Below are positions 67-35,492 of a stretch of 35,492 bases of DNA, piece by piece (position 1 is the first letter of the stretch; each line of letters opens with the position of its first letter). Source of the stretch: Actinomycetota bacterium (GTDB lineage: Bacteria > Actinomycetota > Acidimicrobiia > Acidimicrobiales > Ilumatobacteraceae). The stretch is taken from positions 1 through 35,492 of the forward strand of contig SXKB01000256.1 of assembly GCA_005778215.1 (NCBI GenBank). The letters are read 5' to 3'. The notes under the pieces are model-generated. The model was not told the origin of the DNA and did no database searches. It saw only the letters and a list, made by a program, of their open reading frames with translations. The position numbers were made by a program, and so were the translations under genes.

Positions 67-2028
67 TCAGCCAGGGGGCAGGTGTGACGCGGCCAGGTGA
101 TGCTGGAACCAGCCGAGCACCCGCGCCGTGAAGTCGATCTGTCCGGGGAACGACCGGACACCGTGCCCCTCGAGCGGATACTCCACGTACCCCGTGGGCA
201 CCCCGCGCTCGGCGAGCGCCCGATGGAACGCCAGTCCCTGACTGGCCGGGGTGATGAGGTCGCGGCTGCCGGTGACCACCAACGTGGGGGTGGTGATGCG
301 GTCCACCGCACCGAGCGGATCGCGACCCGGCCGACCGGCCAGCAGATGATCCTGCGCCGCCATGTCGTTGGTGGTGTAGCGCATGAACGACCACTCGGTG
401 ACCGGGCAGTACGGCACCGACGCCCGGAAGCGATCGGTCGCGGCGATGATCCACGCGGCCATGAACCCGCCGTGGCTGCCGCCGAACACGCCCAACCGAT
501 CGGGGTCGGCGATGCCGGCGTCGATCAGCGCGTCGTTGCCGGTGATCACGTCGTCCACCTCGGCGCCACCGAGATCGCCCAGCACCGCGGCACGGAACGC
601 ATCACCACGACCGCTGCTGCCGCGCGGGTTCGGGTGGAACACGGCGTAGCCCGCGCGGGCGAACAGCAACGTGTACGCGTACCCCATCGACCAACGACTG
701 CGCCACGCCCACACCGGCCCACCGTGGATGTAGGTGATGGTGGGGTGCGGACCCGGGCCGTCGGGCACCACCACCAACCCCTCGATCGTGGTGCCGTCGA
801 CCGACGGCCACGTGAGTGCCTCCACGTGACCGGCATCGGCCAGCACCGCATCGTGCCCCGCGTGCCGCAGCGACGTGACGAGCTTCGGGCCCTCCAAGTC
901 GAGCCGCGCGAGTTCGGGCGGGTGTCGGTAGCCCTCCACCACCAGTGCGATCCCACCGGCCGACACCGCGAGTTCGGGGTACCGCTGCCCGCAGGTGAGC
1001 TCGGTCGACGACCACCGCTCCACGAACGTGTCGGTCGCAGGGTCGAACGTGCCGATCACGGTGTCGAGCCCACGCTGGCCTGCCACCACCAACTCGCCCG
1101 ACGCTCGGAACGCCTGCCACGTCACGTCGACACCGCGCAGGTCGATCTCGCGGCGTTCGCCCGACTGACGATCGACGATCGTGACATCGCCGGCCACCAC
1201 GGTGCGGTCGCTGCACGTGGCCGCCACCGAGGCGACCAGTCGACCGTCGACACTGGCCACCGGCAGGCCCACGCACAGGTCGCCGTGTTCCGACAGCGTG
1301 CGCACCGCGCTGTCGGCGACGCTGATCTCCACCAGGCGCGCCGAGAACCACGCCGCCTCCTCAGGACGATCCGATGCGACGGCCACCACGTGATCGGGAC
1401 CGGCCCAGGCGGCCTCCCAACAGGTGAGCCCCTCCGGCGACAGCTGCTGCCACTGCGCATCACCGATCCGCAGCCACCACAGGCGCCGCCATCCACCCAC
1501 CGGCGTCTCGGCCATCACCACCGGCAACCAGTCGGGCGCGTCACCGCGACCCGTGCGGCCCGAGCCCTGTGCGCCCGCAGCGTCGGCCCCGGGGTCGGCC
1601 ACCAACGCCATCAACGCTGCGCCATCGGGCGACCACCACACCTGCTCGGTGGTGCCGGCCAACGCGGGCAGCAGCGTGATCTCGTCGCCGTGCACCAGCG
1701 CCGGCTGCGGCAGTTTCGGTGCCGCATCCACCACGACAGCGAGCCCCTCGCTGTTCGGCGCGAACCGAGGTGCCCGCACCGATGCGTCGGGCAACGACAA
1801 CACCCGCTCGCCGTCGCCGTCGACCACCAACACCTGCTGTCGCGGCGCGGACTGGAGATCGCTGCGCACCACCACGGTGCACGCCAGCACCGTGCCGGTG
1901 TGATCGATGGCCGGATCGGTCGGCTCGCCGGCGCGACCGAACCCCGGGCCGTGCAGCTCGAGGAAGTGGCGCTCGACGCGATCCCACAGCGCCGTGCCGC
2001 GCAGGTCGGGCCGCACTGCATCGATCAT
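67..2028 (-). CDS. S9 (prolyl oligopeptidase-family) serine peptidase / acyl-peptide hydrolase-like
   Basis: C-terminal alpha/beta-hydrolase domain with GVFGGSHGGFMAAW nucleophile motif, late Asp (VVTGSRDLITP) and His (EGHGV); N-terminal beta-propeller-like region. ATG at 2028 overlaps the upstream stop (ATGA 2025-2028), so the ORF-track start at 2391 is an over-extension. Confidence 0.87.
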   Translation of the reverse strand: MIDAVRPDLRGTALWDRVERHFLELHGPGFGRAGEPTDPAIDHTGTVLACTVVVRSDLQSAPRQQVLVVDGDGERVLSLPDASVRAPRFAPNSEGLAVVVDAAPKLPQPALVHGDEITLLPALAGTTEQVWWSPDGAALMALVADPGADAAGAQGSGRTGRGDAPDWLPVVMAETPVGGWRRLWWLRIGDAQWQQLSPEGLTCWEAAWAGPDHVVAVASDRPEEAAWFSARLVEISVADSAVRTLSEHGDLCVGLPVASVDGRLVASVAATCSDRTVVAGDVTIVDRQSGERREIDLRGVDVTWQAFRASGELVVAGQRGLDTVIGTFDPATDTFVERWSSTELTCGQRYPELAVSAGGIALVVEGYRHPPELARLDLEGPKLVTSLRHAGHDAVLADAGHVEALTWPSVDGTTIEGLVVVPDGPGPHPTITYIHGGPVWAWRSRWSMGYAYTLLFARAGYAVFHPNPRGSSGRGDAFRAAVLGDLGGAEVDDVITGNDALIDAGIADPDRLGVFGGSHGGFMAAWIIAATDRFRASVPYCPVTEWSFMRYTTNDMAAQDHLLAGRPGRDPLGAVDRITTPTLVVTGSRDLITPASQGLAFHRALAERGVPTGYVEYPLEGHGVRSFPGQIDFTARVLGWFQHHLAASHLPPG

Positions 2029-4790
2029 CTCGTCTCCTCCGATCGGCTCACCGCGACGCCGTCGGCACCGAGGTAGGTGGCGATGACCTCCGGGTCGTTG
2101 CGCACCTCGTCGGGCGTGCCCGTGCGCAACGTGGTGCCGGCCGCCATGGCCACCACCGTGTCGGCCACCGACATCACCAGCGGGATGTCGTGCTCGATGA
2201 CCACGATCGTGAGGCCCGACACGTCGCGCAGGTCGCGCAGCACTCGGCCCAACGCCTCCACCTCGCGCTGGGCGAGACCGCTCGACGGCTCGTCGAGCAG
2301 CAGCAACCGCGGCTCCAGCGCCACCAGGCTGGCCAGCTCGCAGATGCGGCGCGTGCCCGTGGACAACTCGGCGATGGGGATGTCGCGCCATGCGGCGAGG
2401 CCCAGCGACATGACCAACCCGTCGGCCGCCTGCTGACGTGCAGCGCGACGCCGATCGACGCCGAACAGACCCAGCACCGCGTTACCGGGGTGGCGTCGCT
2501 CGAGCGCGAGCTCGATGGTCTCCTGCACGGTCAGCGACGGGAAGAGCGCCGCGTCCTGGAATCCGCGCACCAGCCCCATGCGCGCCCGCTGCGCGGGCGA
2601 CGCGCCGGTGACGTCGCGGCCGTCGAACACCACCGTGCCGGTGTCGGGCCGCACGAACCCGGCGAGCAACTCGAAGAACGTGGTCTTGCCCGCACCGTTC
2701 GGACCGATGAGCCCCACGATGGTGCCGGCCTGCACCGTGAGGTCCACACCGCCGACGGCCTGCAACCCGCCGTACCGCTTGCTGATGCCGGTGGCCACGA
2801 GCAGCTCGCCACCTGCCGGTCGGGTGCCGGCGGGCGCGGTGAACCCGCCCAACGTCGTGGCGCGGTCGGGTGCCCCGGCCTCGTGCACGCCTTCGTCCAC
2901 CCGGTGCCGCCGTGCCACCACACGCAACAGCCGCTTCCGCAGCGGAGCGAGCAGCGAGGCCAGACCACCCGGCACGTACATGATGAGCAGCAACCACCCC
3001 ACCGACGACGCGGCCAGCGCGGCCGAGTCGAGCGGCAGGAACTTCGGCAACCCCACGATGTACAGCGCGCCGAGCACCGGTCCGGCCACCAACCCGATGC
3101 CACCGATGATGGTCATGGCCACGATGTCGATGTTGTTCTTCACCGGGAACGACTCGGGCGACGCGGTGCTGAGCGAGTGCGTGTAGATGGCCACGCCGAT
3201 GCCGGCGAACGCGCCGCCGAGGAACAACCCCGCGAGCTTCGTGCGTACCGCCGACACGCCGAACGCCTGCACCCCGAGGTCGTTGTCGCGCACGGCGATG
3301 AGTCGACGGCCGAACGTGCCGCGGCGCAGGTTGCCGGCCAACAGCAGCGCCAACGCCAGGAAGGCGAGGGTGAGCCATGCATAGCGCCGGCCCGTGTCGA
3401 ACGCGAACGTGCCCACCGTGGGCCGACCCGGCTCGGTGCCCGCGCCGAACGCCCACGGCTGACCCAACGCCCACACGCTGGTGGCCACCGCGAACGACAA
3501 CGTGGTGACCGTGAGCAACAGGCCCTTCGCCCGCAACGCAGGCAGCCCGGTCAACACCGACAACGCGCCCGCCGTGACGGCCGAGCCCGCGAACGCCGCG
3601 ACGAAGTTGCCGGTGCTGGTGGCGATGGTGATGGACAACGTGCTGCCCAACGCGCCGAACGCCACCAGGCCCAGCGACAACTCGCCGAGCATGCCCGACA
3701 CGATGGTGGCCCCGAGGCCCACGATGGCCAACGCCATGATGGTGGTGATGCTGTACGCCGTGGCGTTGGTGACCACGGCGATGATCACCGCGGTCGCCAG
3801 CACCGCGACCACACCGACCACCCGACCCAGGTTGCGCACCGGCCACACGGCACGTAGCTCCGACGGCAGCGGCCGCCAGGGCTGCACGTTCGCCCACGAC
3901 GTGTGCTCCACCAACCGCCCACCGATGGGCCGCTGCAGCAGCATGCCCACCACGACCACGACGAACAGCACCACTTCCACCACACCCGGGCTGGTGGTGT
4001 TGTCGATGACCACCTGCTCGATGATGCCGATACCGATGCCGGCCACGAACGCCACAGCCAGACGGTCCATGCGGGCCAGCACCGCTGCCGCCAAGGCACG
4101 CATCAGCAACGACGGGCCGAACGCGGCCGCCGCGGCGAACCCGCGAGTGGGCGACACGAGGATCGCGGTCAACGCCGACAACGCCGCAGCCAGGAACCAC
4201 GCCAACGACGACATGCGCGCGGCGGGGATGCCGTCGAGCCGCGCCGACTCGGGGTTGGCTGCCGCCGCACGCAACGCACGACCCCACCGACTGCGGCGCA
4301 GGAACCAACTCAGCCCCACCACCACGATCGGCCCGAGGATCAGCATCGCGCTGTACGCCGGCGTGATGCGCAACTGTCCGATGGAGAACGTGGGCATCCA
4401 CGGCGGCGACGGGTAGGTGAGTCCCGAGGTGGCCGACGGGTTGATGGCCGACGAGAACGACAGCAGCAACTGCCCGATGCCCAACGTGGCCACCACGCTC
4501 ATCAGTGCCGGCGCCGCGCGCAGGCGGCGGATGGCCACCACCTCGGCCGCGCTGCCGATGGCTCCCGCCGCCAGCAACGCCACCGGCAGCATCAGCCAGT
4601 ACGGCATGCCCCATCGCACCACGAGCAACGAGAACAGCGACGCGCCGAACGCGCCCATCTCGCCGTGCGCGAAGTTCACCACCCGGTTCGACCGGTACAC
4701 CAGCACCAGACCAACGGCCAGCAGGCCGTAGAGGATGCCGGTCAGGGCGCCGAGCACCAGCACCGGCCCGTGGAGCGAGAAGCCGATCAC
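2025..4790 (-). CDS. Triple-fusion branched-chain-amino-acid-type ABC transporter: LivH-like permease + LivM-like permease + LivG-like ATPase in one 921-aa polypeptide
   Basis: LivH motif GLLAVGLVLVYRSNRVVNFAHGEMGAFGA; LivM region (FGRRLIAVRDNDLGVQAFGVS, IVAMTIIGGIGLVAGPVLGALY); ATPase with Walker A GPNGAGKTT, signature variant LSTGTRR, Walker B LLLLDEPSSGL. GTG start in GTGA overlap at 4787-4790. Confidence 0.92.
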   Translation of the reverse strand: MIGFSLHGPVLVLGALTGILYGLLAVGLVLVYRSNRVVNFAHGEMGAFGASLFSLLVVRWGMPYWLMLPVALLAAGAIGSAAEVVAIRRLRAAPALMSVVATLGIGQLLLSFSSAINPSATSGLTYPSPPWMPTFSIGQLRITPAYSAMLILGPIVVVGLSWFLRRSRWGRALRAAAANPESARLDGIPAARMSSLAWFLAAALSALTAILVSPTRGFAAAAAFGPSLLMRALAAAVLARMDRLAVAFVAGIGIGIIEQVVIDNTTSPGVVEVVLFVVVVVGMLLQRPIGGRLVEHTSWANVQPWRPLPSELRAVWPVRNLGRVVGVVAVLATAVIIAVVTNATAYSITTIMALAIVGLGATIVSGMLGELSLGLVAFGALGSTLSITIATSTGNFVAAFAGSAVTAGALSVLTGLPALRAKGLLLTVTTLSFAVATSVWALGQPWAFGAGTEPGRPTVGTFAFDTGRRYAWLTLAFLALALLLAGNLRRGTFGRRLIAVRDNDLGVQAFGVSAVRTKLAGLFLGGAFAGIGVAIYTHSLSTASPESFPVKNNIDIVAMTIIGGIGLVAGPVLGALYIVGLPKFLPLDSAALAASSVGWLLLIMYVPGGLASLLAPLRKRLLRVVARRHRVDEGVHEAGAPDRATTLGGFTAPAGTRPAGGELLVATGISKRYGGLQAVGGVDLTVQAGTIVGLIGPNGAGKTTFFELLAGFVRPDTGTVVFDGRDVTGASPAQRARMGLVRGFQDAALFPSLTVQETIELALERRHPGNAVLGLFGVDRRRAARQQAADGLVMSLGLAAWRDIPIAELSTGTRRICELASLVALEPRLLLLDEPSSGLAQREVEALGRVLRDLRDVSGLTIVVIEHDIPLVMSVADTVVAMAAGTTLRTGTPDEVRNDPEVIATYLGADGVAVSRSEETR

Positions 4791-6934
4791 GTCGGTGCCT
4801 CACCGAGGAACACCGAGCGCAGCAGGTCGTCGCGTTCCAGCAACGCCGAGCTGGCACCTTCGAACTGCACTCGTCCGCGCTCCATGAAGTACGCCCGATC
4901 GGCCAACGACAGCGCGACGTTGATGGACTGCTCCACCAACAGCACCGCGGTGCCCTGCTGGTTGATGGTGCGCACCGTGCCCAACAGTTCGGCCACCACC
5001 GACGGTGCGAGGCCCAACGAGAGCTCGTCGATCAGCAACACCTTCGGCCGCACGATGAGCGCCTTCGCCAGCGCGAGCATCTGCTGCTCGCCGCCCGACA
5101 ACGTGGCCGCCGGCTGGTCGCGCCGCTCGGCCAGCCGCGGGAACACGGCCATGGCCTCGTCGAGCCGCGACTCCACGAGTCGCCGGTCGCCGCCCAACGT
5201 GTACGCGTGGGCGCGCAGGTTGTCGACCACCGACAGCGGACCGAATGTCGCTCGCCCGCCCGGCACCTGGGCGAGACCCAGCGCGAGTCGTCGTTCGGGA
5301 TCGAGCCAGGTGATGTCGCTGCCGAACAGCCGCACCGAACCGCGTGTCGGCAGGTTCAGCCCGCACATCGCGCGCAGCACGGTGGACTTGCCGGCACCGT
5401 TGGTGCCCAGCAGCGCCACCATCTCACCGTCGGCCACGCGCAGGTTCACGTCGAACAGCACCTGGATCGAGCCGTAGCCGACGTCGAGGCCCTGACACAC
5501 CAGCGCATCGGAGCGCTGACCCGCCCGCCGCTGCCGCGCCAGCTCGGTCTCCTCGATCATCTCGTCGAGCATCTGATCGAGGTCGTCGTTCACCGTGCGC
5601 GAGCAGCCGTACAGCAGCCACGCGCCCACCAGACCGGGGATGACGATGGCCACGAGCGCACCCGCTGTGCCGAACCGGCGATCGACGGTGCCCAACAGCA
5701 GCGCACCGGCGAACCCGCCGATGCCCGCGCTGTACATGCCGGCAAGTGCCGCGAGATGCGGACGGAACTCGGCCGGCACCACACCGAGCATCGTCACCAC
5801 CAGCGATGGGCCGAGCGCGGCGGCCAGCGCCGACGACCCGATGAAGAAGATCAGCATCGGCACCAGGTACGGCACGAGCGCACCGCACGCGATGGCGACC
5901 ACGCTCGCCGCGAGCAGCGTCGACGCCAGCCGGATGAGCCGCGCCGGATCGTTCTGGAACAGTCGCTCGCCGGCCGGCCCGAAGAACCGCAGGGCCACCA
6001 CCGCGCCGCCCGCCGACACCGCGAAGAACACCGACCGAGCGCCCGGGCCGAAGTTCCACCGCTCGTCGAGGAAGAACAGCAGGAACGCCGAGTACGGCAC
6101 GATCAGCACGCCGAACACCGCCTGCGCGACGAGCGCACGGCGCACGGTGGGGATGATGAGCAGGCGGCGCACCACCTCCGCGAACCGCAATGGTGGCACC
6201 TGGATCTCGTCGCCGTCACCGGTGAGCAGCACCTCGCCCAACGAGTCGCGCTCGGCCCGGCCGACGCCCGGATCGCGCAGCCGCACCGACACGACGGCCA
6301 CCACCAGCGACACCACCGACACCACCAGGAACACGCCGCGCCACGTGAGATCGGCGCGGGTGGTGAGCAACCCCACCAGCAACGGTGCGGCGATGCTGCC
6401 GATGCTGACCGCTGCGGAGTACGCGGTCTGGATGCGCACCCGAGCGGTGGCCGGATAGAGGTCCATCAGCAACGGCTGGTGCAGCACGCGCACGCTGCCG
6501 CTCGACAGGCCATCGATCACCACCACCAACAGCAGGCCCCACGGCCCGATGACGATGACCGCCAGCATCGACGCCGCGGTCCACACGAACGCGGTGACGA
6601 TCGCGATGGAGGCCCGCCACGGACGCCGCTGCACCAGCGCGGCCATCGGCAGCGTGGCGATCGACACCGCGAGCAGCTTCGCCGAGAGGATGGCGGCGAA
6701 GGCACCCTTCGTCATGCCCAGGGTGCGGCTGATCTCGGGGCCGAGCACGGCGAGCGTGAAGCCGAACAGCTCGTCGACGATGACCAGCGCGCAGATGGCG
6801 AGCAGGGGATACCACCCCGCCGGCGACGTGCGCACCGCGGTGGCGAGCGCCACACGCGGATCGTGCGTGTCGGCACCGGTGACGCCCATGGCGCGCCGAG
6901 CGGCGTCGCGCGTCGCAGTGCGGTCGTCGGTCAC
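4787..6934 (-). CDS. MFS-like membrane domain fused to LivF-like ABC ATPase (about 715 aa)
   Basis: N-terminal ~12-TM-like hydrophobic region (WYPLLAICALVIVDELFGFTLAVLGPEI..., LTWRGVFL, FFLDERWNFGPG, VPAEFRPH), then an ATPase: GYGSIQVLFDVNLRVADGEMVALLGTNGAGKST, LSGGEQQMLALAKAL, LLIDELSLGLAP. GTG start in GTGA overlap 6931-6934; the ORF-track start at 7171 is too far upstream. Confidence 0.9.
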   Translation of the reverse strand: MTDDRTATRDAARRAMGVTGADTHDPRVALATAVRTSPAGWYPLLAICALVIVDELFGFTLAVLGPEISRTLGMTKGAFAAILSAKLLAVSIATLPMAALVQRRPWRASIAIVTAFVWTAASMLAVIVIGPWGLLLVVVIDGLSSGSVRVLHQPLLMDLYPATARVRIQTAYSAAVSIGSIAAPLLVGLLTTRADLTWRGVFLVVSVVSLVVAVVSVRLRDPGVGRAERDSLGEVLLTGDGDEIQVPPLRFAEVVRRLLIIPTVRRALVAQAVFGVLIVPYSAFLLFFLDERWNFGPGARSVFFAVSAGGAVVALRFFGPAGERLFQNDPARLIRLASTLLAASVVAIACGALVPYLVPMLIFFIGSSALAAALGPSLVVTMLGVVPAEFRPHLAALAGMYSAGIGGFAGALLLGTVDRRFGTAGALVAIVIPGLVGAWLLYGCSRTVNDDLDQMLDEMIEETELARQRRAGQRSDALVCQGLDVGYGSIQVLFDVNLRVADGEMVALLGTNGAGKSTVLRAMCGLNLPTRGSVRLFGSDITWLDPERRLALGLAQVPGGRATFGPLSVVDNLRAHAYTLGGDRRLVESRLDEAMAVFPRLAERRDQPAATLSGGEQQMLALAKALIVRPKVLLIDELSLGLAPSVVAELLGTVRTINQQGTAVLLVEQSINVALSLADRAYFMERGRVQFEGASSALLERDDLLRSVFLGEAPT

Positions 6935-7392
6935 GGTTCCACCAGCTCGAACTGCGTGGTGGCCGACGTCTCGCCGTCGCGGCGCCCATCGGCGTCGAGC
7001 CGCACGATCGTGAGCTCGTGGAACGTGTTCGACCGCTCGCCCTTCAGCTCGGGCACGATCGCGATCTCGACCGAGGTGCTCGCCGCGACGGTCACTCCGC
7101 GACGAGCGAGGTACAGCTCGTCGGGACAGGCGGCGCTGGCTGCGCAGTCGGCGTCGCCCTTCGCGAACCACTCGACGGTCTCACCCGGTGGCATCGGCGC
7201 ACGATCGATGAGCACCAGGTACGAGCCGCCCGGCTTCGGGGTGGCGTCGGTCCAGGTGACCGTCAACGGCGCCGTGACACCGGCCCGATCGGCCGGTGCC
7301 GCGATGGCGATGGAACGATCGGCGCGCAACGCGAGCCCGTCGACCGCGAACTGCGAGCAGCCCGCGAGCACGGCCACGGCGGCCACTGCCAT
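6931..7392 (-). CDS. Small lipoprotein of unknown function, paralog of 30721-31206
   Basis: Lipobox AVLAGC after a short hydrophobic stretch; body shares VDGL-x-x-R, C-x5-CPD-x-YL, FHE-x-TIV and GRR-x-GET motifs with 30721-31206. Start ATG 7392 or adjacent GTG 7395 (ambiguous). Confidence 0.78.
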   Translation of the reverse strand: MAVAAVAVLAGCSQFAVDGLALRADRSIAIAAPADRAGVTAPLTVTWTDATPKPGGSYLVLIDRAPMPPGETVEWFAKGDADCAASAACPDELYLARRGVTVAASTSVEIAIVPELKGERSNTFHELTIVRLDADGRRDGETSATTQFELVEP

Positions 7393-7413
7393 CACCGCTC
7401 GGAGCGAGCGGTG
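7393..7413 (-). promoter_or_regulatory. Intercistronic hairpin between substrate-binding-protein gene and lipoprotein gene
   Basis: Perfect 9-bp inverted repeat, 3-nt loop: CACCGCTCG-GAG-CGAGCGGTG (plus strand). Fills most of the gap between stop (7421) and next start (7392). Confidence 0.6.
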
Positions 7414-7420
7414 CCGCAGG

Positions 7421-8809
7421 TCAGTCGATCGGGGTCGGGTCACCGGCTCGATACTTGTTGCACGCGCAGGCGCTGTCGTAGTCGGTGATGTAGTACTCGG
7501 CCACACCGTCGTGACGACCCGGACCGAACACCGACTTCAGTGCGGCCGGCGACTCGTAGGTGTCGCCCAGGCCTTCGATGGCGGCAGCGAGGTCGGCCGC
7601 CGCGACCGGCGCACCCGCACCGGTGACGCCGGCCTCCAACAGCCACGTCGCGTCGCAGAAGCGCAGCGTTTCGCTGGTGGCGTTGGGCGAGGTGAACACG
7701 GCACGGGTGCTGTCGATCAGGTCGAGGCACTTCGTGGCCGCAGCCGACTCGGGCAGCTGATCCGCGTCGGGCACCTCACCGATGGGCGACCAGGCCACGT
7801 TCGTGCCACCGGTCTTGATGTTCTGCACCAGGGTCTGACCGCCCGACAGCGAGCTGAAGCCGAGCAGCGGGGTGAACCCCTGGCTGGCCGCGTTGCTGAG
7901 GAAGAAGAACGGCGCTGCGCCACCCGACTCGAAGAACACCAGATGGGTGACCCCGGCCTCCTTCATCTTCAGCACGGCCGCCGCGGCCTCCGACGAGAAC
8001 CGGCCGATGTCGTCACTGGTCTTGATGCTCGCGAGCGCCGCCGTCTCCACCGGCGTGATGCCGGCTGCGGCCAGCGCCGGCTCGAGGCTGTTCGTGGCAG
8101 CGGCATCGAACTCGGGGCTGGTGAGGCGCACCAGACCCACCTTCGCATCGGCCGTGAAGAAGCCGGCCGTGTCGAGCCCCTCCACGAGCGCCGTCGCGGC
8201 GCGATCGAGGTTGATGCCCGACGGGTTGAAGTAGAACGGGTTGGCGTCGTACACGCCCTGATCGGCGAACGAGAACGTCGCACCGCTCGACGCGATGAGC
8301 GGCACCCCCGCCTCGGTGAGGCAGGCGAGCACCTCGGCGCCCGGATCGTTGATGCTGAGGACGGCGTACACCTCGTTGTCCTCGGTGAACGTCGCGCACA
8401 CCGCGCTGGCGTTCGCCGCCGGGTCGGTGTCGGTGAGCAGGTCGGTGACGTGCAGCACCGGCACGACCTCCTTGCCGCCCAGGCCGCCGCGCCCGTTGAT
8501 GTCGTCGACCAACGTGGCGACCACTTCCTGGTGATCCACGAACGTGATGCCCGTGGTGCCCAACTGCGCCTGCGCCTCGGCCTGGTTCTCGGCGACGAGG
8601 AAACCCACCTTCACGGTGTCGCCGTCGACGCCCGGCACCGGTGCCGGCGGTTCGGTGGTCTCGGGTTCGGTGCTCGCCGGGTCGGTGGTGGCCGGGTCGG
8701 TGCTGGCCACCGTCGTCGGCGTGGACGTCTCGGCGCTGTCCTTGGCGGTCGAGCCACAGGCCGACACCAGCAGCACGCAGGCGATGCCCGCAATCAGTCG
8801 AATACGCAC
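7421..8809 (-). CDS. LivK-like periplasmic substrate-binding lipoprotein of the ABC transporter
   Basis: Lipobox LLVSAC, Thr/Pro-rich tether (TSTPTTVASTDPATTDPASTEPETTEP), then type-1 binding-protein fold sequence (VKVGFLVAENQ..., DDINGRGGLGGKEV, VPLIASSGATFSFAD...). GTG start 8809 with upstream GGGAGGA Shine-Dalgarno. Confidence 0.88.
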   Translation of the reverse strand: MRIRLIAGIACVLLVSACGSTAKDSAETSTPTTVASTDPATTDPASTEPETTEPPAPVPGVDGDTVKVGFLVAENQAEAQAQLGTTGITFVDHQEVVATLVDDINGRGGLGGKEVVPVLHVTDLLTDTDPAANASAVCATFTEDNEVYAVLSINDPGAEVLACLTEAGVPLIASSGATFSFADQGVYDANPFYFNPSGINLDRAATALVEGLDTAGFFTADAKVGLVRLTSPEFDAAATNSLEPALAAAGITPVETAALASIKTSDDIGRFSSEAAAAVLKMKEAGVTHLVFFESGGAAPFFFLSNAASQGFTPLLGFSSLSGGQTLVQNIKTGGTNVAWSPIGEVPDADQLPESAAATKCLDLIDSTRAVFTSPNATSETLRFCDATWLLEAGVTGAGAPVAAADLAAAIEGLGDTYESPAALKSVFGPGRHDGVAEYYITDYDSACACNKYRAGDPTPID

Positions 8810-8890
8810 GTCAGATCCTCCCCAGATGATCGATCGCCCCAGTCTGACCCGTGGCCGATGGTGTGAACCGCCGACGAGCGGAGGTGCTGA

Positions 8891-8906
8891 TTGTGTGATC
8901 CCACAA
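8891..8906. promoter_or_regulatory. Candidate operator palindrome upstream of the substrate-binding-protein gene
   Basis: TTGTG-T-GATC-C-CACAA, near-perfect 16-bp palindrome (one mismatched pair), in the 98-bp gap upstream of the GTG start at 8809. Confidence 0.35.
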
Positions 8907-8907
8907 C

Positions 8908-9807
8908 TCACACCGCGAGCTGCGCGCCCACGACGACCACCGCCAGGCCGACGACGATGTACGTGCGGATGTCGCGACCGGTGCGCGTCCACATCGGCCC
9001 GCCGAGCGCCTTCGACCACACGTTGGTGCCACCGTGGATCATCACGGCCGGCCACACGCTGCCGGTGTGGTGCCACGCCACGGTCATCAGCCCCGACAGC
9101 GCCACGCAGAGCAGCACGAACTGGGCCTGGAGGGTGATGAACCGACGCCACTTCGGCTGGTGCAACAGGGCCGGCACCTCGCGCGGCAGGTGCCACGCCC
9201 ACCAGGCCACCGCCAGCACCACGGTGGGCCACCACATCGTGCCCGTCGTGGCCACCAGCACCGGCAGTGCGAAGCCGCGCCACCCCAGCTCCTCCAGCGA
9301 GCCACCCTCGTCGACGAACATGCCCCCGACGATGCGCCGCCACCGTCGAGTGACCGGTTGGTCGCGCAGCAGTGGTGGCACCGGCTCCACCGGGAAGCGC
9401 GCCGCCACGCGCAGGTACGCCACCGAGACCACCACGAACACGGCGAGGATGACCGCATAGGTGATGAGTGCCGCGGTGGTGCTGCGGTCGTGCCATGGCG
9501 CCAGTCGCCACAGCAGTGCCCGGACACCGGCGACACCGCTGCCGAACACCGACGTCACGATCGCGGCGATCGACGGGGCCGCGGCGAACACGAGGATGAT
9601 GGTGGCGAACGGTTGCGTGCGGCAGAAGCGCGCGATCGACACCGTGTTCGCGTAGGTGTCGTGCGCGTCGAACCAGGCGAACATCTCGGGGAACACGCGC
9701 CGCGTCTCGGGCCGTGCGGCCTGCACGCGGCCGGCGTAGACCATCACGCCGCACACCACCGCCAACGCGATCGCGTAGTACAGCCCGAGTGACGCCCAGC
9801 CGGTCAC
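8908..9807 (-). CDS. CPBP-family (Abi/CAAX protease-like) intramembrane protein
   Basis: Multi-TM sequence with EELGWRG (EExxxR), WHLP and HGGTN motifs typical of CPBP proteins. GTG start in GTGA overlap at 9804-9807. Confidence 0.78.
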   Translation of the reverse strand: MTGWASLGLYYAIALAVVCGVMVYAGRVQAARPETRRVFPEMFAWFDAHDTYANTVSIARFCRTQPFATIILVFAAAPSIAAIVTSVFGSGVAGVRALLWRLAPWHDRSTTAALITYAVILAVFVVVSVAYLRVAARFPVEPVPPLLRDQPVTRRWRRIVGGMFVDEGGSLEELGWRGFALPVLVATTGTMWWPTVVLAVAWWAWHLPREVPALLHQPKWRRFITLQAQFVLLCVALSGLMTVAWHHTGSVWPAVMIHGGTNVWSKALGGPMWTRTGRDIRTYIVVGLAVVVVGAQLAV

Positions 9808-10925
9808 TTGTGCCCCGATGCGCCGAAGTGATGGGGGGCCGCGTGCAACGCGAACGGGTTGTCGTGCCACCCCGTGTCGTCGGCGAGGTCGGCCAGGCGT
9901 CGCCCGATCTCGGGAACGAACTTGAACCCGTGCCCACTCAGCCCCACGCCCACCAGGATGTCACCGATTCGGTCGAGCACGAAGTCCTCCGTCGGGGTGG
10001 ATGCGTACAGGCACGTCGACGCGTCCACCGGTGTCGGGTCGACGCCGGGCAGGTTCGCCGCCGCCCACTCCTGCAGGCGCTGCCACGACGTGGGTTCCAC
10101 CTCGTACGTGCGGTGGTCGGGATGCACCACCGGACCCGTGTGGTGCTCGCCCACCTTCACCAGCCCCTCGGGCGTGGTCATGCCGTAGTGCCGCAACTTG
10201 GCGCGATCGATGAATGTCGGCCAGGCGAACTGCCCACGCGGTCGGAAGAACGCGAGCTGTTCCTTGGTGACGCGATACCCGGGCAGGTCGACCACGCCCG
10301 CCAGCAGCGACGGCGCCCACGCGCCCGTGGTGACCACCGCAACGCCGGCGCGCACCGTGCGGTCGCCCAGGTGCACCACCACACCCGCGTCGGTCTGTTC
10401 CACCCGCGTGACCTCGGTGACGGCCTGCAGCGTCGCACCGTGCTGCACCGCCAGGCGACGCAGCACCGACACGGCCCGATCGGCGTGCACCGTGCCGCCG
10501 TCGGCGTGGAACAGGACGTCGCCGTCGAACCGCATGCCCGGGTAGCGACGCTGCGCGTCGACCGCGTCGAACCGCTCCATCGCCACGCCCACGGCAGTGG
10601 TGCACTGTTCGATCTCGTCGAGCTCCTCGGCGAAGCCCGTGTCGATGGCACCCGTGCGCGACAGCAGCGGCACGCCCGCTGCACGTTCGAGTTCGCCCCA
10701 CCCGTCGAGCGCATCGAGTGCGAACCGCACGTAGGCCGGATCGGTGTGACCCAACCGCACGATGCGCTCGGTGCCGTGCGACGAACCCCGCCGATGGCCG
10801 GGCTCGAACCGGTCGACCGCCAACACCGAACGGCCTCGCCGCGCGCAGTGCCAGGCCGTGGCCGAACCGGCAGCGCCACAACCGACCACCACCACGTCGA
10901 ACACGTCGACGCGGTCGGCACTCAC
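9804..10925 (-). CDS. FAD-dependent sarcosine oxidase / N-methyl-amino-acid oxidase (MSOX/MTOX family)
   Basis: N-terminal dinucleotide fold VVVVGCGAAGSATAWHCARRG; GSSHGTERIVRLGH; TCLYASTPTEDFVLDRI (covalent-FAD Cys region of the MSOX/MTOX family); GLSGHGFKFVPEIG. GTG start in overlap 10922-10925. Confidence 0.87.
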   Translation of the reverse strand: MSADRVDVFDVVVVGCGAAGSATAWHCARRGRSVLAVDRFEPGHRRGSSHGTERIVRLGHTDPAYVRFALDALDGWGELERAAGVPLLSRTGAIDTGFAEELDEIEQCTTAVGVAMERFDAVDAQRRYPGMRFDGDVLFHADGGTVHADRAVSVLRRLAVQHGATLQAVTEVTRVEQTDAGVVVHLGDRTVRAGVAVVTTGAWAPSLLAGVVDLPGYRVTKEQLAFFRPRGQFAWPTFIDRAKLRHYGMTTPEGLVKVGEHHTGPVVHPDHRTYEVEPTSWQRLQEWAAANLPGVDPTPVDASTCLYASTPTEDFVLDRIGDILVGVGLSGHGFKFVPEIGRRLADLADDTGWHDNPFALHAAPHHFGASGHK

Positions 10926-11761
10926 TGGTTCCACGCGCCGGCTTCGAAGTCGGCGACCTCGACCGCCAGCCATGCGCGTTCGAATGCGCTCGGCACGTCG
11001 TGTGCCGTGATGCGCACGGTGCGCACGTCGACACGTTCCACATCGACGAACCGCTCGATGCGATCGGCCTGACGGTGCGAGAGCGTGTCGATCTCGATGA
11101 CGGTCGGCGTGTTCACCACCAGCGGCGCCACCGCGGCGCGGTTGCGCACTGCTGCTTCGGCCGCCATGCGGATCATCTCGGTGGTGGTGGGCAGCGGCAG
11201 ACACCGTGCGTTCTGCCGCCCGGTCGTGTGCTTCACGGTGACCGCAGTGATGCCCGGCACGAACTGCGCCGCCTCGTCGGCGACGTACTGATCGCCCGTC
11301 ACCCGCACCACCGGCAGACCGTGGTGACCTGCCACGGCGGCTGTGATGGCCGTCTCGCCGATCGGCCGGCCGTTCAAGCGGAACTGCCCCACCACGCCGC
11401 CGTGCCACGTGTGGGACAGCAACCCGTCGGTGCCCGCCATCGAGTGGTAGCCCACCAGCAGCGCGCACGAGAACGACGAGTCGAGACCCTCCACCTGGCA
11501 CATCGTGCGGCCGGCCGCAGGGCCACGATGGGCCACCACGCCGGCTGGCAGGTCGTCGAACAACAGGTTGCGCATGCCGGCATGGCCGTCGACCACCAGC
11601 ACCTCGGTGGCCCCTGCCGCGAACGCACCCTCCGCAGCGGCGATCACGTCGCCGGTCATCCACCGACGAGCGCGTTCCCAGCCTGCGGTGCCCTGCGTGA
11701 GCTCCTCGCCGTGCACCACACCGCTGATGCCCTCCATGTCGGCGGAGATGAACACCTTCAC
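10922..11761 (-). CDS. M55-family D-aminopeptidase (DppA-like)
   Basis: VKVFISADMEGISGVVHGEEL start, VVDGHAGMRNLLFDDLP, HTWHGGVVGQFRLNGRPIGET: characteristic of M55 D-aminopeptidases. GTG start in overlap 11758-11761. Confidence 0.87.
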   Translation of the reverse strand: MKVFISADMEGISGVVHGEELTQGTAGWERARRWMTGDVIAAAEGAFAAGATEVLVVDGHAGMRNLLFDDLPAGVVAHRGPAAGRTMCQVEGLDSSFSCALLVGYHSMAGTDGLLSHTWHGGVVGQFRLNGRPIGETAITAAVAGHHGLPVVRVTGDQYVADEAAQFVPGITAVTVKHTTGRQNARCLPLPTTTEMIRMAAEAAVRNRAAVAPLVVNTPTVIEIDTLSHRQADRIERFVDVERVDVRTVRITAHDVPSAFERAWLAVEVADFEAGAWNQ

Positions 11762-13506: not shown

Positions 13507-13587
13507 CGCCCCAGGTTGGTGCCGGGCGGCTGTGCCAAGTCGCCAACGAAGCGCGCAGCTCGCTGTGCGATCGAACAACGCCGCGCG

Positions 13588-13923
13588 TCAGTCGAGCATC
13601 TTCATCTCGTCGATCTGACCGTCGGTGAGGTGGAATGCCACGGCCGCCTCGAACTGCCGACCGCTGTCGTCGTCGATGCGTTCGTGATCGACCACCCAGT
13701 CGCCGACCGCGATGCGGTTCAGGATGGTGGCGCGCCGGCCCACCACGGCGAACACCGGCACGTACGCCTCGCGCAGTTGCTCGTAGCCCTCGGCGCGCAC
13801 GGTGCCGTTGCCCGTGGTGAGGCGGATGGTGGGCGCGAAACACGCCACGAAGTCGTCGAGGCGGTGCTCGTTGTACGCGGCCAGTTGACGGTTCACCGGG
13901 TGATCGTCGGGCAGTCCGTTCAT
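13588..13923 (-). CDS. SnoaL/NTF2-like small protein (paralog of 24708-25052)
   Basis: Small alpha+beta protein DDHPVNRQLAAYNEHRLDDFVACFAPTIRL...VRAEGYEQLREAY..., steroid-isomerase/SnoaL-like pattern; ATG in ATGA overlap with upstream PucR gene (13920-13923). Confidence 0.75.
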   Translation of the reverse strand: MNGLPDDHPVNRQLAAYNEHRLDDFVACFAPTIRLTTGNGTVRAEGYEQLREAYVPVFAVVGRRATILNRIAVGDWVVDHERIDDDSGRQFEAAVAFHLTDGQIDEMKMLD

Positions 13924-15521: not shown

Positions 15522-15569
15522 TCGGCCACGGTAGCCCTGCGCTTGACGGACGTCATACCGTGTCCCCCG
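15522..15569. promoter_or_regulatory. Compact divergent promoter/operator between PucR and serine hydrolase genes
   Basis: TACCGT (TANNNT-type -10) 6 nt before the minus-strand ATG (15533-15528) and 8 nt before the plus-strand ATG (15556-15561); perfect inverted repeat TGACG-GA-CGTCA at 15544-15555; no clear Shine-Dalgarno on the plus side. Confidence 0.55.
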
Positions 15570-16619: not shown

Positions 16620-17080
16620 CCCCGTTCGAACGCGTCGTCGCCCACCTCGACGAGCTGGGCATCGAGTACCGGCTGATGCACCATGCCCCCACGCTCACCA
16701 GCCTGGAAGCCGCCGAGATCCGCGGTGTCGACGCGTCGCGCGGCGCGAAGTCGTTGGTGGTGAAGTCGAAGGACGGCATGGCGCAGTTCGTGGTGCCGGG
16801 TGACGCATTGCTCGACTGGGGTGCGGTGAAGGCCGCAGGGTTCCGCAAGCCACGCCTGGCCGACGAGGACGAACTGCTCGCCGCCACCGGTCTCACCAAG
16901 GGCAGCGTGCCGCCGTTCGGCAACCTGTTCGGTCTGCCCGTCTTCATCGACGAGGACGTGATCGACGTGCCGCTCGTGCAGTTCAACGCCGCATCGCTCA
17001 CCGACTCGGTGGAGATCGCCGGTGCCGAACTCGTACGCGCCACCGGCGGCACCATCGGTCGCTACCGGGCCCGACCGTGA
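16616..17080 (+). CDS. YbaK/EbsC-family aminoacyl-tRNA deacylase (editing domain)
   Basis: HHAPTLTSLEAAEIRGVDASRGAKSLVVKSKDGMAQFVVPGD..., GSVPPFGNLFGLPVFIDEDV. GTG starts in GTGA overlap at 16616-16619. Confidence 0.87.
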   Translation: MTPFERVVAHLDELGIEYRLMHHAPTLTSLEAAEIRGVDASRGAKSLVVKSKDGMAQFVVPGDALLDWGAVKAAGFRKPRLADEDELLAATGLTKGSVPPFGNLFGLPVFIDEDVIDVPLVQFNAASLTDSVEIAGAELVRATGGTIGRYRARP

Positions 17081-18417: not shown

Positions 18418-18419
18418 CC

Positions 18420-22265: not shown

Positions 22266-22384
22266 CCGCTCACGATGGCAAACGCGAGCGCGCGCGGGCT
22301 ATGTGCACCGGCACGGATCGGTGTGCGCCGGTCGTGCGGTGGGACGAGATCCGGCACCGCCGGTGTCGGGCAGGATGGGTGAAC

Positions 22385-28098: not shown

Positions 28099-28123
28099 CA
28101 GGTCGATTCTCGCGCCTGCGCAC

Positions 28124-28987: not shown

Positions 28988-29019
28988 CTTGCCCGAGTGG
29001 GGTTCACCCGTGTTTCGTG

Positions 29020-29043
29020 GCGGCGACCGAATTCGCGGCGACC
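29020..29043. repeat. 9-bp direct repeat GCGGCGACC x2 flanking GAATTC, upstream of the GNAT/PucR2 genes
   Basis: GCGGCGACC at 29020-29028 and 29035-29043 with spacer GAATTC, in a 75-bp intergenic gap. Confidence 0.4.
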
Positions 29044-30720: not shown

Positions 30721-31206
30721 ATGCCCGTGCGACGCGCCCTCGTTCTCGCGCTCTGCCTCGCGCTCGCCGGCTGCTCCGTCGACGGTCTCTCGTTCCGTAC
30801 CGACGATCGCCTGCAGATCGTCAACCTGCCCGACCGCAGCACCATCGAGATCCCGTTCGAGTTGGAGTACACCTTCGACGGCACGCTCTCCGCCGACGGC
30901 ATCGCCGCGTTCGGCATCCTCATCGACTGGACACCGCCGCCGCCCGGCGATTCGCTGGCCAGCCTGCTCGACGACGACCCGGTGTGCCAGGGCGAGACGG
31001 GCTGCCCCGACGGGTACCTCGAACGGAACCGCATCACCATCACCACCGACACGACCTTCCTGATGGACAACGTGCCGGTCGGCACCGACCGGCAGGAGCG
31101 CCGCGGCTTCCACGAGGTCACCATCGTGCTCGTCGACGCCGAAGGGCGGCGTGTGGGCGAGACGGCCGCGTTCACCCGCTTCCGCACCCCAGGGGTGAAC
31201 GCGTGA
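30721..31206 (+). CDS. Small lipoprotein of unknown function, paralog of 6931-7392
   Basis: MPVRRALVLALCLALAGC lipobox; body motifs VDGLSFRTDD, C-x5-CPDGYL, GFHEVTIVLVDAEGRRVGETAA match the cassette 1 lipoprotein. Confidence 0.82.
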   Translation: MPVRRALVLALCLALAGCSVDGLSFRTDDRLQIVNLPDRSTIEIPFELEYTFDGTLSADGIAAFGILIDWTPPPPGDSLASLLDDDPVCQGETGCPDGYLERNRITITTDTTFLMDNVPVGTDRQERRGFHEVTIVLVDAEGRRVGETAAFTRFRTPGVNA

Positions 31207-33386
31207 GCAGCGGCGTCGGGCTCGAGCGCATCGAGGTCATCGATGCCGACCGCGCGCAGGCCCGCAGCCTGCTCGGGCTCGGCGGTGAGCGCGCCGACCA
31301 CACCGACCACGGCGACCGCCGGCCACTCCGCCAGGTGATGCGCGACCACCACGTCGGCTGGTACGTGGTGCTGGCCCTCGGCCTCCTCGGTCTCGCCGAC
31401 ACGCTGCAGGGCTACGCCTTCGGGGTGATGGCACCCGAGATCGCGCGCACACTCGGCATCAGCCGAGGTGAGCTCGCCACCCTCAACGCGGCGAAGACGC
31501 TCGCCACGGCAGCGCTCACCATCCCCCTCGTGATGACCGTGCAGCGCACACCCCGGCGCGCCCTCGTGTCCGTCGTGGCCGCCTTCGTCTGGGCGGTCTT
31601 CGCGCTGATGACCGCGTTCGTCACCACGCTCGCCGGGCTGGCCGCGGTGCTCATCGTCGACGGGGCCACCAGCGGCGCATGCGGCACGATGCACATGCCA
31701 CTGCTCGCCGACAGCTACCCGCCGCGGGCCCGGGTGCGGGTGCTGGCCTGGTACTCCGGCCTCGGCGCCGCCGGCAACATCATCGCCCCCCTCGCCGTGG
31801 CGGGGCTGAGCACGTGGGCCGGCCTCACCTGGCGCGGCGTGTTCCTGTTCACCGGCGCGTTCACGCTCGTGGTCGCCGTGGTCGCGCTGTGGTTGCGCGA
31901 CCCTGGCTTCGGTCACTGGGACACCGAGCAGCTGCGCGAGGCGCAGGGCGGCGACGCACCCGCACGACCCGACCGCGACGATGAACCGCGCCTCGGCTTC
32001 AGCGAGATCGCGCAACGCCTGCTGATGGTGCCCAGCATCCGCCGCCAGCTCGCGGGCTTCATGGTGCTCGGTGTGATGGCCGTGCCGCTCGGCACCTTCA
32101 TCACGTTCCTCCTCGACGAACGGTGGGGCGTCGGCCCGGGTGGCCGCGGTCTCCTCGCTGCGCTGCAGGCCGCCGTCGCCCTCGTCACCCTTGCGGCGTT
32201 CGGCCGCGTCGGTGAACGGATGCTGCACCGCGACCCGTCGGCGGTGGTGCGGCTCGCCTCGGTCTTCATCGTGGTGTCCACGGCCGCCACCGCGCTCGCC
32301 GCGGTCAGCCCGGTGTTCGGCCTGGTGATCGTGCTCCTCGTGGTGGGCACCGCCGGCTTCGCGATGCTGTCGCCCGCACTCGCCGCGCTGCAGATGAGCC
32401 TGGTGCCCGCCGAGATGCGGCCGCACGCCATCGCGCTCGGTGGCCTCGCCACCGGCTTCGGCGGGTTGACCGGCTCGCTGTACCTGTCGGGCATCGACCG
32501 CCGGTTCGGTGTCGCCGGCGCCATCGTGGCGCTGGCCATTCCCGGGTTCATCGCCGCCCTCATCGTGCGCAGCTGCGCCCGCACCCTCGAGTCCGACATC
32601 GACCGGATGGTCACCGACGTGATCGAGGAGGCGCGGGTGCGCACCGCCCGAGCGAGCGGCGCCACGCTGCCACTGCTGTCGGTGCGGGGCGTCGATGCGA
32701 AGTACGGCGACGTGCAGGTGCTGTTCGACGTCGACGTCACGGTCGACGAAGGCGAAGTTGTCGCGCTGCTGGGCACGAACGGTTCCGGCAAGTCGACGCT
32801 GTTGAAGGTGGTGTCCGGGCTGCTGCTGCCGAGCGCGGGGTCGGTGCGACTGTCGGGGGCCGACGTCACGTTCGTGAGTGCCGAACGCCGGGTGGGCATG
32901 GGGATCACCCAGATCCCGGGAGGACACGCGGTGTTCGGTCCGCTCACCGTGGTGGAGAACCTGATGGCCTACGCCGACACCCTCGACCTCGGTTCGCGGT
33001 CGGCCCCGGAGATCGAACGCTGTTTCGAGCTCTTCCCGGCGCTGGCGGATCGCCGCAACCAGCCGGCGAGCACCCTGTCGGGTGGTGAGCAGCAGATGCT
33101 GGCGCTCGCCAAGGCCGCCATCCTGCGGCCGCGGCTGTTGCTCATCGACGAGCTGTCGTTGGGCCTCGCGCCCGCCGTCGTGGGAGAACTGCTCGATCGC
33201 GTCGGCGACCTCCGCGGCGCCGGCAGCACGATCGTGCTGGTCGAGCAGTCGGTGAACCTCGCCCTGTCGGTGTGCGAGCGCGCCTACGTCCTCGAGCGCG
33301 GTTCGGTGCGCTTCTCCGGTCTCGGTAGCGACCTGCTCCGGCGCGACGACCTGCTGCGTGCCGTGTTCCTGGGGGATCACGAATGA
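31203..33386 (+). CDS. MFS-like membrane domain fused to LivF-like ABC ATPase (about 727 aa), paralog of 4787-6934
   Basis: MFS part WYVVLALGLLGLADTLQGYAFGVMAPEIARTLG..., LTWRGVFLF, FLLDERWGVGPG, VPAEMRPH; ATPase part YGDVQVLFDVDVTVDEGEVVALLGTNGSGKST, LSGGEQQMLALAKA, LLIDELSLGLAP. GTG start in GTGA overlap 31203-31206; the ORF-track start at 30453 is an over-extension. Confidence 0.9.
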   Translation: MSSGVGLERIEVIDADRAQARSLLGLGGERADHTDHGDRRPLRQVMRDHHVGWYVVLALGLLGLADTLQGYAFGVMAPEIARTLGISRGELATLNAAKTLATAALTIPLVMTVQRTPRRALVSVVAAFVWAVFALMTAFVTTLAGLAAVLIVDGATSGACGTMHMPLLADSYPPRARVRVLAWYSGLGAAGNIIAPLAVAGLSTWAGLTWRGVFLFTGAFTLVVAVVALWLRDPGFGHWDTEQLREAQGGDAPARPDRDDEPRLGFSEIAQRLLMVPSIRRQLAGFMVLGVMAVPLGTFITFLLDERWGVGPGGRGLLAALQAAVALVTLAAFGRVGERMLHRDPSAVVRLASVFIVVSTAATALAAVSPVFGLVIVLLVVGTAGFAMLSPALAALQMSLVPAEMRPHAIALGGLATGFGGLTGSLYLSGIDRRFGVAGAIVALAIPGFIAALIVRSCARTLESDIDRMVTDVIEEARVRTARASGATLPLLSVRGVDAKYGDVQVLFDVDVTVDEGEVVALLGTNGSGKSTLLKVVSGLLLPSAGSVRLSGADVTFVSAERRVGMGITQIPGGHAVFGPLTVVENLMAYADTLDLGSRSAPEIERCFELFPALADRRNQPASTLSGGEQQMLALAKAAILRPRLLLIDELSLGLAPAVVGELLDRVGDLRGAGSTIVLVEQSVNLALSVCERAYVLERGSVRFSGLGSDLLRRDDLLRAVFLGDHE

Positions 33387-35492
33387 TCGGGTTCGAGGTG
33401 CTGGGCTGGGACATCCCCGCCGAGATCGTCGTTCTCGGCGCCATCATCGGCGCGTCCTACGGTCTGCTCGCAGTGGGCCTGGTGCTGGTGTACCGCAGCA
33501 GCAAACTGGTGAACTTCGCCCACGCCGAGACCGGCGCGTTCGCCGCCACCATCCTCTATGTCGGCGTGAACCGCTGGGGGTTGCCCTACTACGCCGTGCT
33601 GCCCCTCGCCCTCGCCGTGGCCGCGCTGCTGGGCATGGGGGTGGAGGCCATCGTCGTGGGTCGGCTCGGCAAGGCACCCCCGTTGATGAGCATCGTCGCC
33701 ACGCTCGGCGTCGCCCAGCTGTTGTCGGCGCTCGCCGCGGCCATCGCGGCGGGCGGCGGCGAACAGTTCGCGTTCCCCTCACCCCCGGGCATGCCGACGT
33801 TCGACATCGGCGCCCTGCGGCTGACCGGCGACTACACCGCCACGCTGATCTTCGCCCCCATCGTGGTGGTGGCGCTGGCCCTGTTCCTGTCCCGCACGCG
33901 CGCCGGCCTTCGCGTACGCGCCACCGCCGCGAACAAGGACGCCGCGCGACTGGCGGGCATCCCGGCGGTGCGCACCTCCCGGCTCGTCTGGGCACTCGCC
34001 GGGCTGTTGGCCGCCATGACCGCCATCCTCGCCGCGCCGTCGAAGGGCCCCGGCTTCGCCGCCGCACTCGGGCCCGGGCTGCTGCTGCGCGGTCTCGCTC
34101 CGGCACTGGTGGCGAAGATGCGCAGCCTGCCGGTCGCGCTCGCCGCCGGTGTGGTGCTGGGCATCATCGAGCAGGTCGTGTTCTGGAATCAACGCAGCGC
34201 GCAGAACGTCGATGCCATCCTGTTCGTCGTCATCCTGCTGGCGCTGCTCGCCCAGCACCACGGGCACGAACGCAACGCCGGCCAGGCGGGTTGGGCCGGC
34301 ATCGAGACCTGGCGGCCGCTCGCCACGAAGCTGCGCGCCCATCCGCGTGTGCGGATGATGGCGCCCACGGCGCTCGTGGTGTTCGCCGCGCTCGCCGCGT
34401 TGTTGCCGCTGGCGCTCGATCGCACGCGGGCCGTCACGCTTGCGAGCATGGTCGGGTACGCCGTCATCGGCGTGGCCCTCGGTCTGCTCACCGGGCTCGC
34501 GGGGCAGCTGTCGCTCGGCCACTTCGCCATCGGCGCCATCAGCGGCACGGCGTCGGTGATCGTCGCGAACCACACCGGCAACTTCGCGCTCGGTCTGGCG
34601 GCGGCCGCCGTGGTGGGCGGTGCGGTCTGCCTGCTCGTCGGTCTCCCGGTACTGCGCGCTCGCGGCATCTTCCTGGCGGTCACCTCCCTCGCGCTCGCGG
34701 TCACCACCACCAGTTGGCTGCTGCCGAAGGACTGGATGATCGGCACCGGTCGCGAACCACCGAAGCCCACGGTCGGCACGCTCGAGATCACCGGCGCTCG
34801 CGGGTACTACTGGTTCGCGCTCGTCATCGGGCTCGTCGTGTTCGTGGTGGTCGCCGCCGTCCGCCGGGGTGGTTTCGCCCGAGTGCTCATCGCGATGCGC
34901 GACGGCGAGGACGTCGCCCGCTCGTTCGGCATCTCCGTGCCCACTCGCAAGGTGCAGGCCTTCGTGGTGTCGGGTGTGGTCGCCGGTATCGGCGGTGCGC
35001 TGTACGCGCACACCTTCTCGCGCATCACGGTCGCATCGTTCCCGGCCTCGGCCAGCATCGACGTGGCGGTGATGGTGGTGGTGGGCGGCGCCACCCTGCT
35101 CGCGGGTCCACTCGTCGGCGTGCTGTTCGTGATCGGCGTACCGGCGTTCCTGCCGCTCGACGCCGCAGGGCTGGCGACCACCAAACTCGGGCTGTTGCTG
35201 CTCATCATCTATCTGCCCGGTGGATTCGCGCAGTTGCTGCTGCCACTGCGCAACCGGCTCGCAGCGCGCCTGGCCCGCCACACCCCCGACGCCACACCCA
35301 CGGCGCCACCGACACTGACCGCGGTGCACGACACCGACGATCCGGCCGACCCGATCGACGTGACCGCGCAACCAGTGGTGCTCCGCGCCACGGCCCTGGT
35401 GAAGCAGTACGGCGGCGTGCGGGCGGTCGACGGCGCCACCATCGCCGTGCACCGCGGAGAGATCCTGGGCGTGATCGGCCCCAACGGCGCCG
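33383..35492 (+). CDS. LivH-LivM-LivG triple-fusion ABC transporter protein, truncated by window end (paralog of 2025-4790)
   Basis: Own translation from ATG 33383 (ATGA overlap): MIGFEVLGWDIPAEIVVLGAIIGASYGLLAVGLVLVYRSSKLVNFAHAETGAFAATILYVGVNRWGLPYYAVLPLAL...; LivM part RVLIAMRDGEDVARSFGIS; ends at Walker A ...GVIGPNGA. Not in the supplied ORF track because no stop codon occurs before the window end. Confidence 0.9.
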   Translation, partial: MIGFEVLGWDIPAEIVVLGAIIGASYGLLAVGLVLVYRSSKLVNFAHAETGAFAATILYVGVNRWGLPYYAVLPLALAVAALLGMGVEAIVVGRLGKAPPLMSIVATLGVAQLLSALAAAIAAGGGEQFAFPSPPGMPTFDIGALRLTGDYTATLIFAPIVVVALALFLSRTRAGLRVRATAANKDAARLAGIPAVRTSRLVWALAGLLAAMTAILAAPSKGPGFAAALGPGLLLRGLAPALVAKMRSLPVALAAGVVLGIIEQVVFWNQRSAQNVDAILFVVILLALLAQHHGHERNAGQAGWAGIETWRPLATKLRAHPRVRMMAPTALVVFAALAALLPLALDRTRAVTLASMVGYAVIGVALGLLTGLAGQLSLGHFAIGAISGTASVIVANHTGNFALGLAAAAVVGGAVCLLVGLPVLRARGIFLAVTSLALAVTTTSWLLPKDWMIGTGREPPKPTVGTLEITGARGYYWFALVIGLVVFVVVAAVRRGGFARVLIAMRDGEDVARSFGISVPTRKVQAFVVSGVVAGIGGALYAHTFSRITVASFPASASIDVAVMVVVGGATLLAGPLVGVLFVIGVPAFLPLDAAGLATTKLGLLLLIIYLPGGFAQLLLPLRNRLAARLARHTPDATPTAPPTLTAVHDTDDPADPIDVTAQPVVLRATALVKQYGGVRAVDGATIAVHRGEILGVIGPNGA

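Follow-up and report, generated by a model that had tools for sequence, protein, structure and literature searches.

ABC transporters count as primary and MFS transporters as secondary, and the two are regarded as distinct superfamilies that draw on different energy sources. In SUR-Kir6 (the K-ATP channel), an ABC protein is physically associated with another membrane transport protein, and one of the two regulates the other. The ABC systems closest to the locus described here are the Liv-type (HAAT) importers, LivFGHM and UrtABCDE, with which it shares the LivH, LivM, LivG and LivF domains, the ATPase motifs and a nearby putative binding protein. On the MFS side, the sensor kinase-MFS proteins (SK-MFS, 2.A.1.34) consist of an MFS domain joined to another functional domain (PMC3924187). 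Coupling residues are described for two carriers: in HnSPNS, Glu129 is the intracellular protonation switch, with participation of Asp41, Arg42, Arg122 and the motif A residue Asp87 (PMC9440201), and in DgoT, D46N and E133Q abolish active transport (PMC6532931). We found no description of an MFS-ABC fusion in the open-access literature, in which the MFS-LivF fusion reported below appears undescribed; unnamed database entries of such fusions very likely exist.

Two operons with an MFS-LivF fusion

The window—the whole stretch of 35,492 nucleotides analysed here—contains two operons of this kind, with the following features:

2025..4790, minus strand: LivH-LivM-LivG fusion, 921 aa, with two BPD_transp_2 stretches, ABC_tran and BCA_ABC_TP_C (Pfam)
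4787..6934, minus strand: MFS-LivF fusion gene, GTG start at 6934, stop at 4789-4787, 715 aa
4799..5509, minus strand: its LivF ATPase domain, residues 476-712 (Pfam, NCBIfam, ATPase motifs)
5525..5593, minus strand: its linker helix, residues 448-470, containing D451 (AlphaFold2 model and alignment)
5603..6811, minus strand: its Spinster/DgoT-like MFS domain, 12 TM helices, residues 42-444 (MFS_1 match, PDB profile matches)
6931..7395, minus strand: orphan lipoprotein with lipobox LAGC, 4-bp overlap with the MFS-LivF start; start codon uncertain
7421..8809, minus strand: putative substrate-binding lipoprotein, divergent kin of Peripla_BP_6 (LivJ/K); GTG start assigned by eye
30721..31206, plus strand: lipoprotein of the second operon, homologue of the first operon's lipoprotein
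31203..33386, plus strand: second MFS-LivF fusion gene, encoding 727 aa with 48% identity to the first, 4-bp overlap with both neighbours
33383..35492, plus strand: second LivH-LivM-(LivG) fusion, cut by the window end just inside LivG

On the minus strand, the first operon reads from the binding protein (8809..7421) through the lipoprotein (~7395..6931) and MFS-LivF to LivHMG (4790..2025). Overlaps of 4 bp (GTGA) flank MFS-LivF on both sides, at 4787-4790 with the LivHMG start and at 6931-6934 with the lipoprotein end. An earlier, sequence-only reading of this DNA had described at 4787-6934 a 12-TM MFS-like domain lacking an ABC permease signature and followed by a complete LivF-like ATPase; the coordinates were correct (the gene lies on the minus strand), and so was the domain assignment. 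Pfam placed MFS_1 at residues 56-411 of the 715-aa protein (E 9e-21; 74.6 bits, cut-off 33.4) and ABC_tran at residues 494-637 (E 2e-24), with no match to ABC permease families anywhere in the chain, which rules out that the N-terminal region is itself an ABC permease. For the C-terminal part, LivF took the top NCBIfam rank (4e-56, under the equivalog cut-off), and Walker A (GTNGAGKST, 510), signature (LSGGEQQ, 612) and Walker B (LLIDEL, 633) motifs are all present. The AlphaFold2 model (mean pLDDT 88.9, pTM 0.84) comprises, in order, 12 long helices, the linker helix and an ABC ATPase fold. When the whole model was submitted to Foldseek, ABC chains ranked first, a result that leaves the MFS half uninformed.

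The remaining parts of a Liv-type importer are encoded next to the fusion. As the sequence-only reading had proposed, the partner chain (2025-4790) supplies both permease domains and the second ATPase, its Pfam matches including two BPD_transp_2 domains and ABC_tran, and the LivG-like and LivF-like ATPases each have Walker A, signature and Walker B motifs, as in Liv-type/HAAT systems. The window's binding protein had no Pfam match of its own; its phmmer homologues are the binding proteins of two other loci (L139 and L231), which match Peripla_BP_6. Taken as annotated, the ABC core (LivH, LivM, LivF, LivG) appears to lack no part and would be expected to import in the manner of other Liv systems.

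The fusion of the MFS domain to LivF is real. That an assembly error or a frameshift had joined two separate genes was worth considering, given a host assembly that is fragmented (356 contigs) and 75% complete, but the probability of such an artefact is now negligible. The host genome holds three MFS-LivF genes, all in frame: besides the first copy, a full-length one on the plus strand of the same window (48% identity), again flanked by a lipoprotein gene on one side and LivHM(G) on the other, each overlapping it by 4 bp, and one elsewhere in the genome (37% identity; contig C50), where LivH-LivM is followed by an MFS-LivF-LivG single chain and then by a binding protein. About 80 other genomes, some assembled as one contig, have open full-length fusions without internal stops, and the fused LivFs form one clade (see below). 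These independent copies refute the artefact, and the claim of a fusion survives.

Architecture, distribution and ancestry of the family

Similar MFS-LivF fusions beside LivH, LivM and LivG in other genomes, whose existence the sequence-only reading had surmised, were recovered; 45 of them, from retrieved loci, make up with the two copies of the window an annotated set of 47. In all 47, the MFS domain immediately precedes LivF in the chain, and LivH and LivM are encoded close by; LivG is present at every fusion locus except L153, where it was not found, and the partner set otherwise consists of one H, one M and one G. The Walker and signature motifs of LivF are intact in the fusions, and the LivF switch position is Gln in 47/47. 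Three operon types can be told apart. In type I, to which the window belongs, MFS-LivF accompanies LivH-LivM-LivG, mostly together with a lipoprotein and often with a binding protein; type II has LivH-LivM, MFS-LivF-LivG and usually a binding protein; type III pairs MFS-LivF with LivH-LivM-LivG and has no lipoprotein. For one natural MFS-LivF-LivG chain (L010), the predicted model had a pTM of 0.66, too low for domain placement. Open frames of 1,700-1,970 aa were considered as LivHM-MFS-LivF-LivG single chains and rejected, as LivHM lies in a different, overlapping frame.

Full-length MFS-LivF in one open frame, with no internal stops, occurs in at least about 80 of 296 genomes of the host's class, across ~29 families—a lower bound, since at most three candidates per genome were scored in the match table from which the count was taken (E <= 1e-140). 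Some of these fusion-positive genomes are assembled as one contig. Across the phylum, 25 of 397 sampled genomes counted as fusion-positive, and a sister class of three genomes has several fusion copies in each. Named records gave four full-length matches, all from Actinomycetota and three of them labelled Acidimicrobiales/Acidimicrobiia, so that the window very probably belongs to Acidimicrobiia. Among 50 genomes reached via named loci, a full-length match was present only in the four already known to bear the fusion, and all other matches spanned just LivF. Sampling the phylum of a Chloroflexota record returned one genome of 251 (G758; loci L246-L248) with three full-length MFS-LivF fusions, which may reflect transfer, misplacement or an old lineage. 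Missing from the sequence-only reading had been the wide, clade-level spread of the fusion, the second window copy and the lipoprotein component.

In trees from quick searches without bootstrap, the 47 fused LivFs formed one clade relative to 76 unfused LivFs (SH-aLRT 100), within which types I, II and III were each a clade (support 86-97). The MFS-domain tree showed the same split of I+III versus II (supports 97 and 98), which argues for co-inheritance of the two domains. One same-genus fusion (L225, 7787-10030) departs from this pattern, its LivF grouping with type III and its MFS domain falling outside the main MFS clade, owing either to a domain swap or to fast divergence.

MFS-less relatives consist of LivH-LivM-LivF-LivG in one chain or two. 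At several of these loci (L170-L182; for instance L170, 2997-6986), which are nested in the fused clade, all four domains occupy one open frame of ~1,250-1,330 aa. When LivFs of the MFS-less H-M-F-G systems were added to the tree, they branched within type II at several points, for the most part modestly supported; this nesting suggests one gain and several losses of the MFS domain, which is apparently dispensable for the ABC core. In the MFS tree, type II likewise contains stand-alone MFS proteins of this family. One of them (L217, 7962-9374, minus strand) is encoded near an MFS-less H-M-F-G operon, ~1.4 kb away from that operon's binding-protein gene and on the other strand.

The lipoprotein family of the window operons matched nothing in Pfam or the PDB; an alignment of 13 sequences revealed a conserved Cys pair. 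It was found only with type I MFS-LivF operons: 13 of the 14 type I loci first examined encode it, and among the 296 genomes of the class its nine copies, in four genomes, each lie in or within a few kb of a type I operon. The exception, L151, is the earliest-branching type I member and retains the motif B Arg. Gain of the lipoprotein and loss of MFS coupling residues (see below) coincide on one branch, and hence count as one event rather than a statistical association.

A peptide/amide hydrolase cluster (67-19532 and 25079-30601) lies around and between the two operons of the window, and includes S9 and M55 peptidases, Amidohydro_3, three beta-lactamase-type hydrolases, an FAD oxidase and two PucR-type regulators. 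Such neighbours hint at peptides or D-amino-acid compounds as the substrate, but this is only a lead, because similar beta-lactamase-type hydrolases occur at just 3/12 type I and 1/29 type II loci. Also encoded in the window are an alpha-mannosidase-type glycoside hydrolase (GH38; 19620-22265, minus strand) and a transketolase/pyruvate dehydrogenase E1-like protein (22190-24700, plus strand).

Coupling residues of the MFS domain

Pfam, a PDB profile search and AlphaFold2 agree on a 12-TM MFS fold nearest to Spinster and DgoT. The best PDB matches of a profile built from the 47 MFS domains were the bacterial Spinster 6e8j (E 2.8e-39) and DgoT 6e9o (E 3.1e-28). In the one alignment on which residue pairing with HnSPNS and DgoT rests, the position of the TM4 switch (HnSPNS E129, DgoT E133) is Glu in none of the 47 domains; it is occupied by Lys or Arg in 25 of the 35 type II and III domains, by Ser or Thr in 11 of the 12 of type I, and by Asp in two. 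Other coupling positions differ by type. The motif A Asp is present in every domain of type II (25/25) and type III (10/10), and the motif B Arg in most of them (24/25 and 8/10, respectively); type II also retains Asp41 (24/25) and Arg42 (20/25). In type I, neither Arg42 nor the motif A Asp survives in any domain (0/12 each), and Asp41 and the motif B Arg are each kept in a single one (1/12). At the five positions, the window copies read F/G/Q/V/S and Q/G/Q/L/S. Five more type I proteins aligned later showed the same losses, one of them being gapped at TM1 and poorly aligned.

Other polar residues are kept. R107, D158, R199 and D451 are conserved in 12/12 type I domains, D451 of the linker helix being invariant in all 47 fusions, and D54, H152, D158, R199 and R300, located in or at the ends of predicted helices, are conserved in type I. 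Helices 1, 4, 7 and 10 are only slightly more conserved than 3, 6, 9 and 12. Within type I, identity is 0.44 for the MFS domain versus 0.65 for LivF, which would fit either relaxed constraint or substrate diversification.

The absence of the switch Glu in 47/47, together with the further losses in the window type, makes an independent proton-driven second transporter less likely; judged from these residues, the MFS domain probably does not run on protons. Of the earlier proposal that an MFS carrier is tethered to a Liv-type importer, the tethering stands, given the covalent joining seen in Pfam and in the in-frame copies, and an independent proton-driven carrier is, on the same residue pattern, less likely than the sensing device that the proposal also raised. 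In types II and III, carrier activity by uniport or exchange is possible, as motif A and mostly the motif B Arg are kept, and type II mostly has the TM1 Asp-Arg pair along with a cationic switch position.

Role of the MFS domain and relation to known transporters

The reading we favour, with a probability of about 0.5, is a Liv-type (hydrophobic amino acid/urea family) importer whose LivF bears at its N-terminus a complete Spinster-like MFS, acting as a tethered accessory domain without proton coupling and with a regulatory, docking or substrate-handling role. The LivH/LivM/LivF/LivG core would import a solute handed over by the binding protein. The MFS domain, held to the importer via LivF and presumably no longer a proton-coupled carrier, may sense or present substrate, or it may dock partners outside the cytoplasm, which in the window type would be the dedicated lipoprotein; the linker helix would relay its conformational state to the paired LivF and LivG ATPases. 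An accessory role is suggested by the existence of MFS-less sister systems; we infer it, as we do complex formation, the importer direction and the loss of proton coupling in practice.

Three other readings were weighed against the accessory domain. The MFS might be a working carrier—an exporter, exchanger or uniporter—beside the importer, expelling a product or co-ion, for example. The confidently predicted 12-TM fold (AlphaFold2) speaks for such a two-module transporter, as do motif A in 35/35 of types II and III, the motif B Arg in most of these and the TM1 Asp-Arg in most of type II; a Lys or Arg at the switch position in types II and III would suit an anionic substrate, and stand-alone members of the same MFS family exist, one of them close to an MFS-less operon. 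With the switch Glu gone from every fusion and further coupling positions missing in the window type, we nonetheless consider a working carrier somewhat improbable. A passive scaffold, in which the MFS merely anchors LivF or fixes stoichiometry and its cavity has no role, would account for the lost coupling residues of type I, for an MFS domain that evolves faster than LivF and for MFS-less relatives nested in the clade. Yet twelve TM helices kept over ~29 families would be a costly anchor, the polar D54, H152, D158, R199 and R300 have stayed conserved in type I, and type I acquired a dedicated lipoprotein, so that a fusion of mere convenience seems unlikely. A hybrid transporter class, with the MFS domain and the ABC importer working as a single machine, is likewise doubtful: ATP hydrolysis by LivF-LivG would drive or gate MFS cycling in place of the lost proton coupling, the window type adding its dedicated lipoprotein.

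A conserved, single-origin fusion devoid of the proton switch raises the question of whether an ABC ATPase can run, gate or read an MFS fold, for which the natural MFS-less sister systems and the three types are ready-made controls. The family may also bear on how uncultured bacteria related to Acidimicrobiia feed, since it occurs in many of their lineages and some genomes carry several copies.

Relative to described Liv-type/HAAT importers, the present systems differ by the 12-TM MFS domain on LivF, by fusion of H with M and G (or of H with M and of F with G) and, in type I, by an additional lipoprotein. HnSPNS (6e8j) and DgoT/SLC17-like carriers are the best PDB matches of the MFS domain, and most of type II shares with them the motif A region, the TM1 Asp-Arg and the motif B Arg; here, however, the switch Glu is absent from all 47 domains, the MFS is fused to an ATPase, and nearly all of type I, both window copies included, lacks the TM1 Asp-Arg along with the motif A Asp and the motif B Arg. 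Unlike in SK-MFS proteins, the MFS domain is joined here to an ATPase from another transporter superfamily, one that also has permeases of its own. And whereas the partner in SUR-Kir6 is a separate ion channel, here an MFS domain resides on one of the NBD chains.
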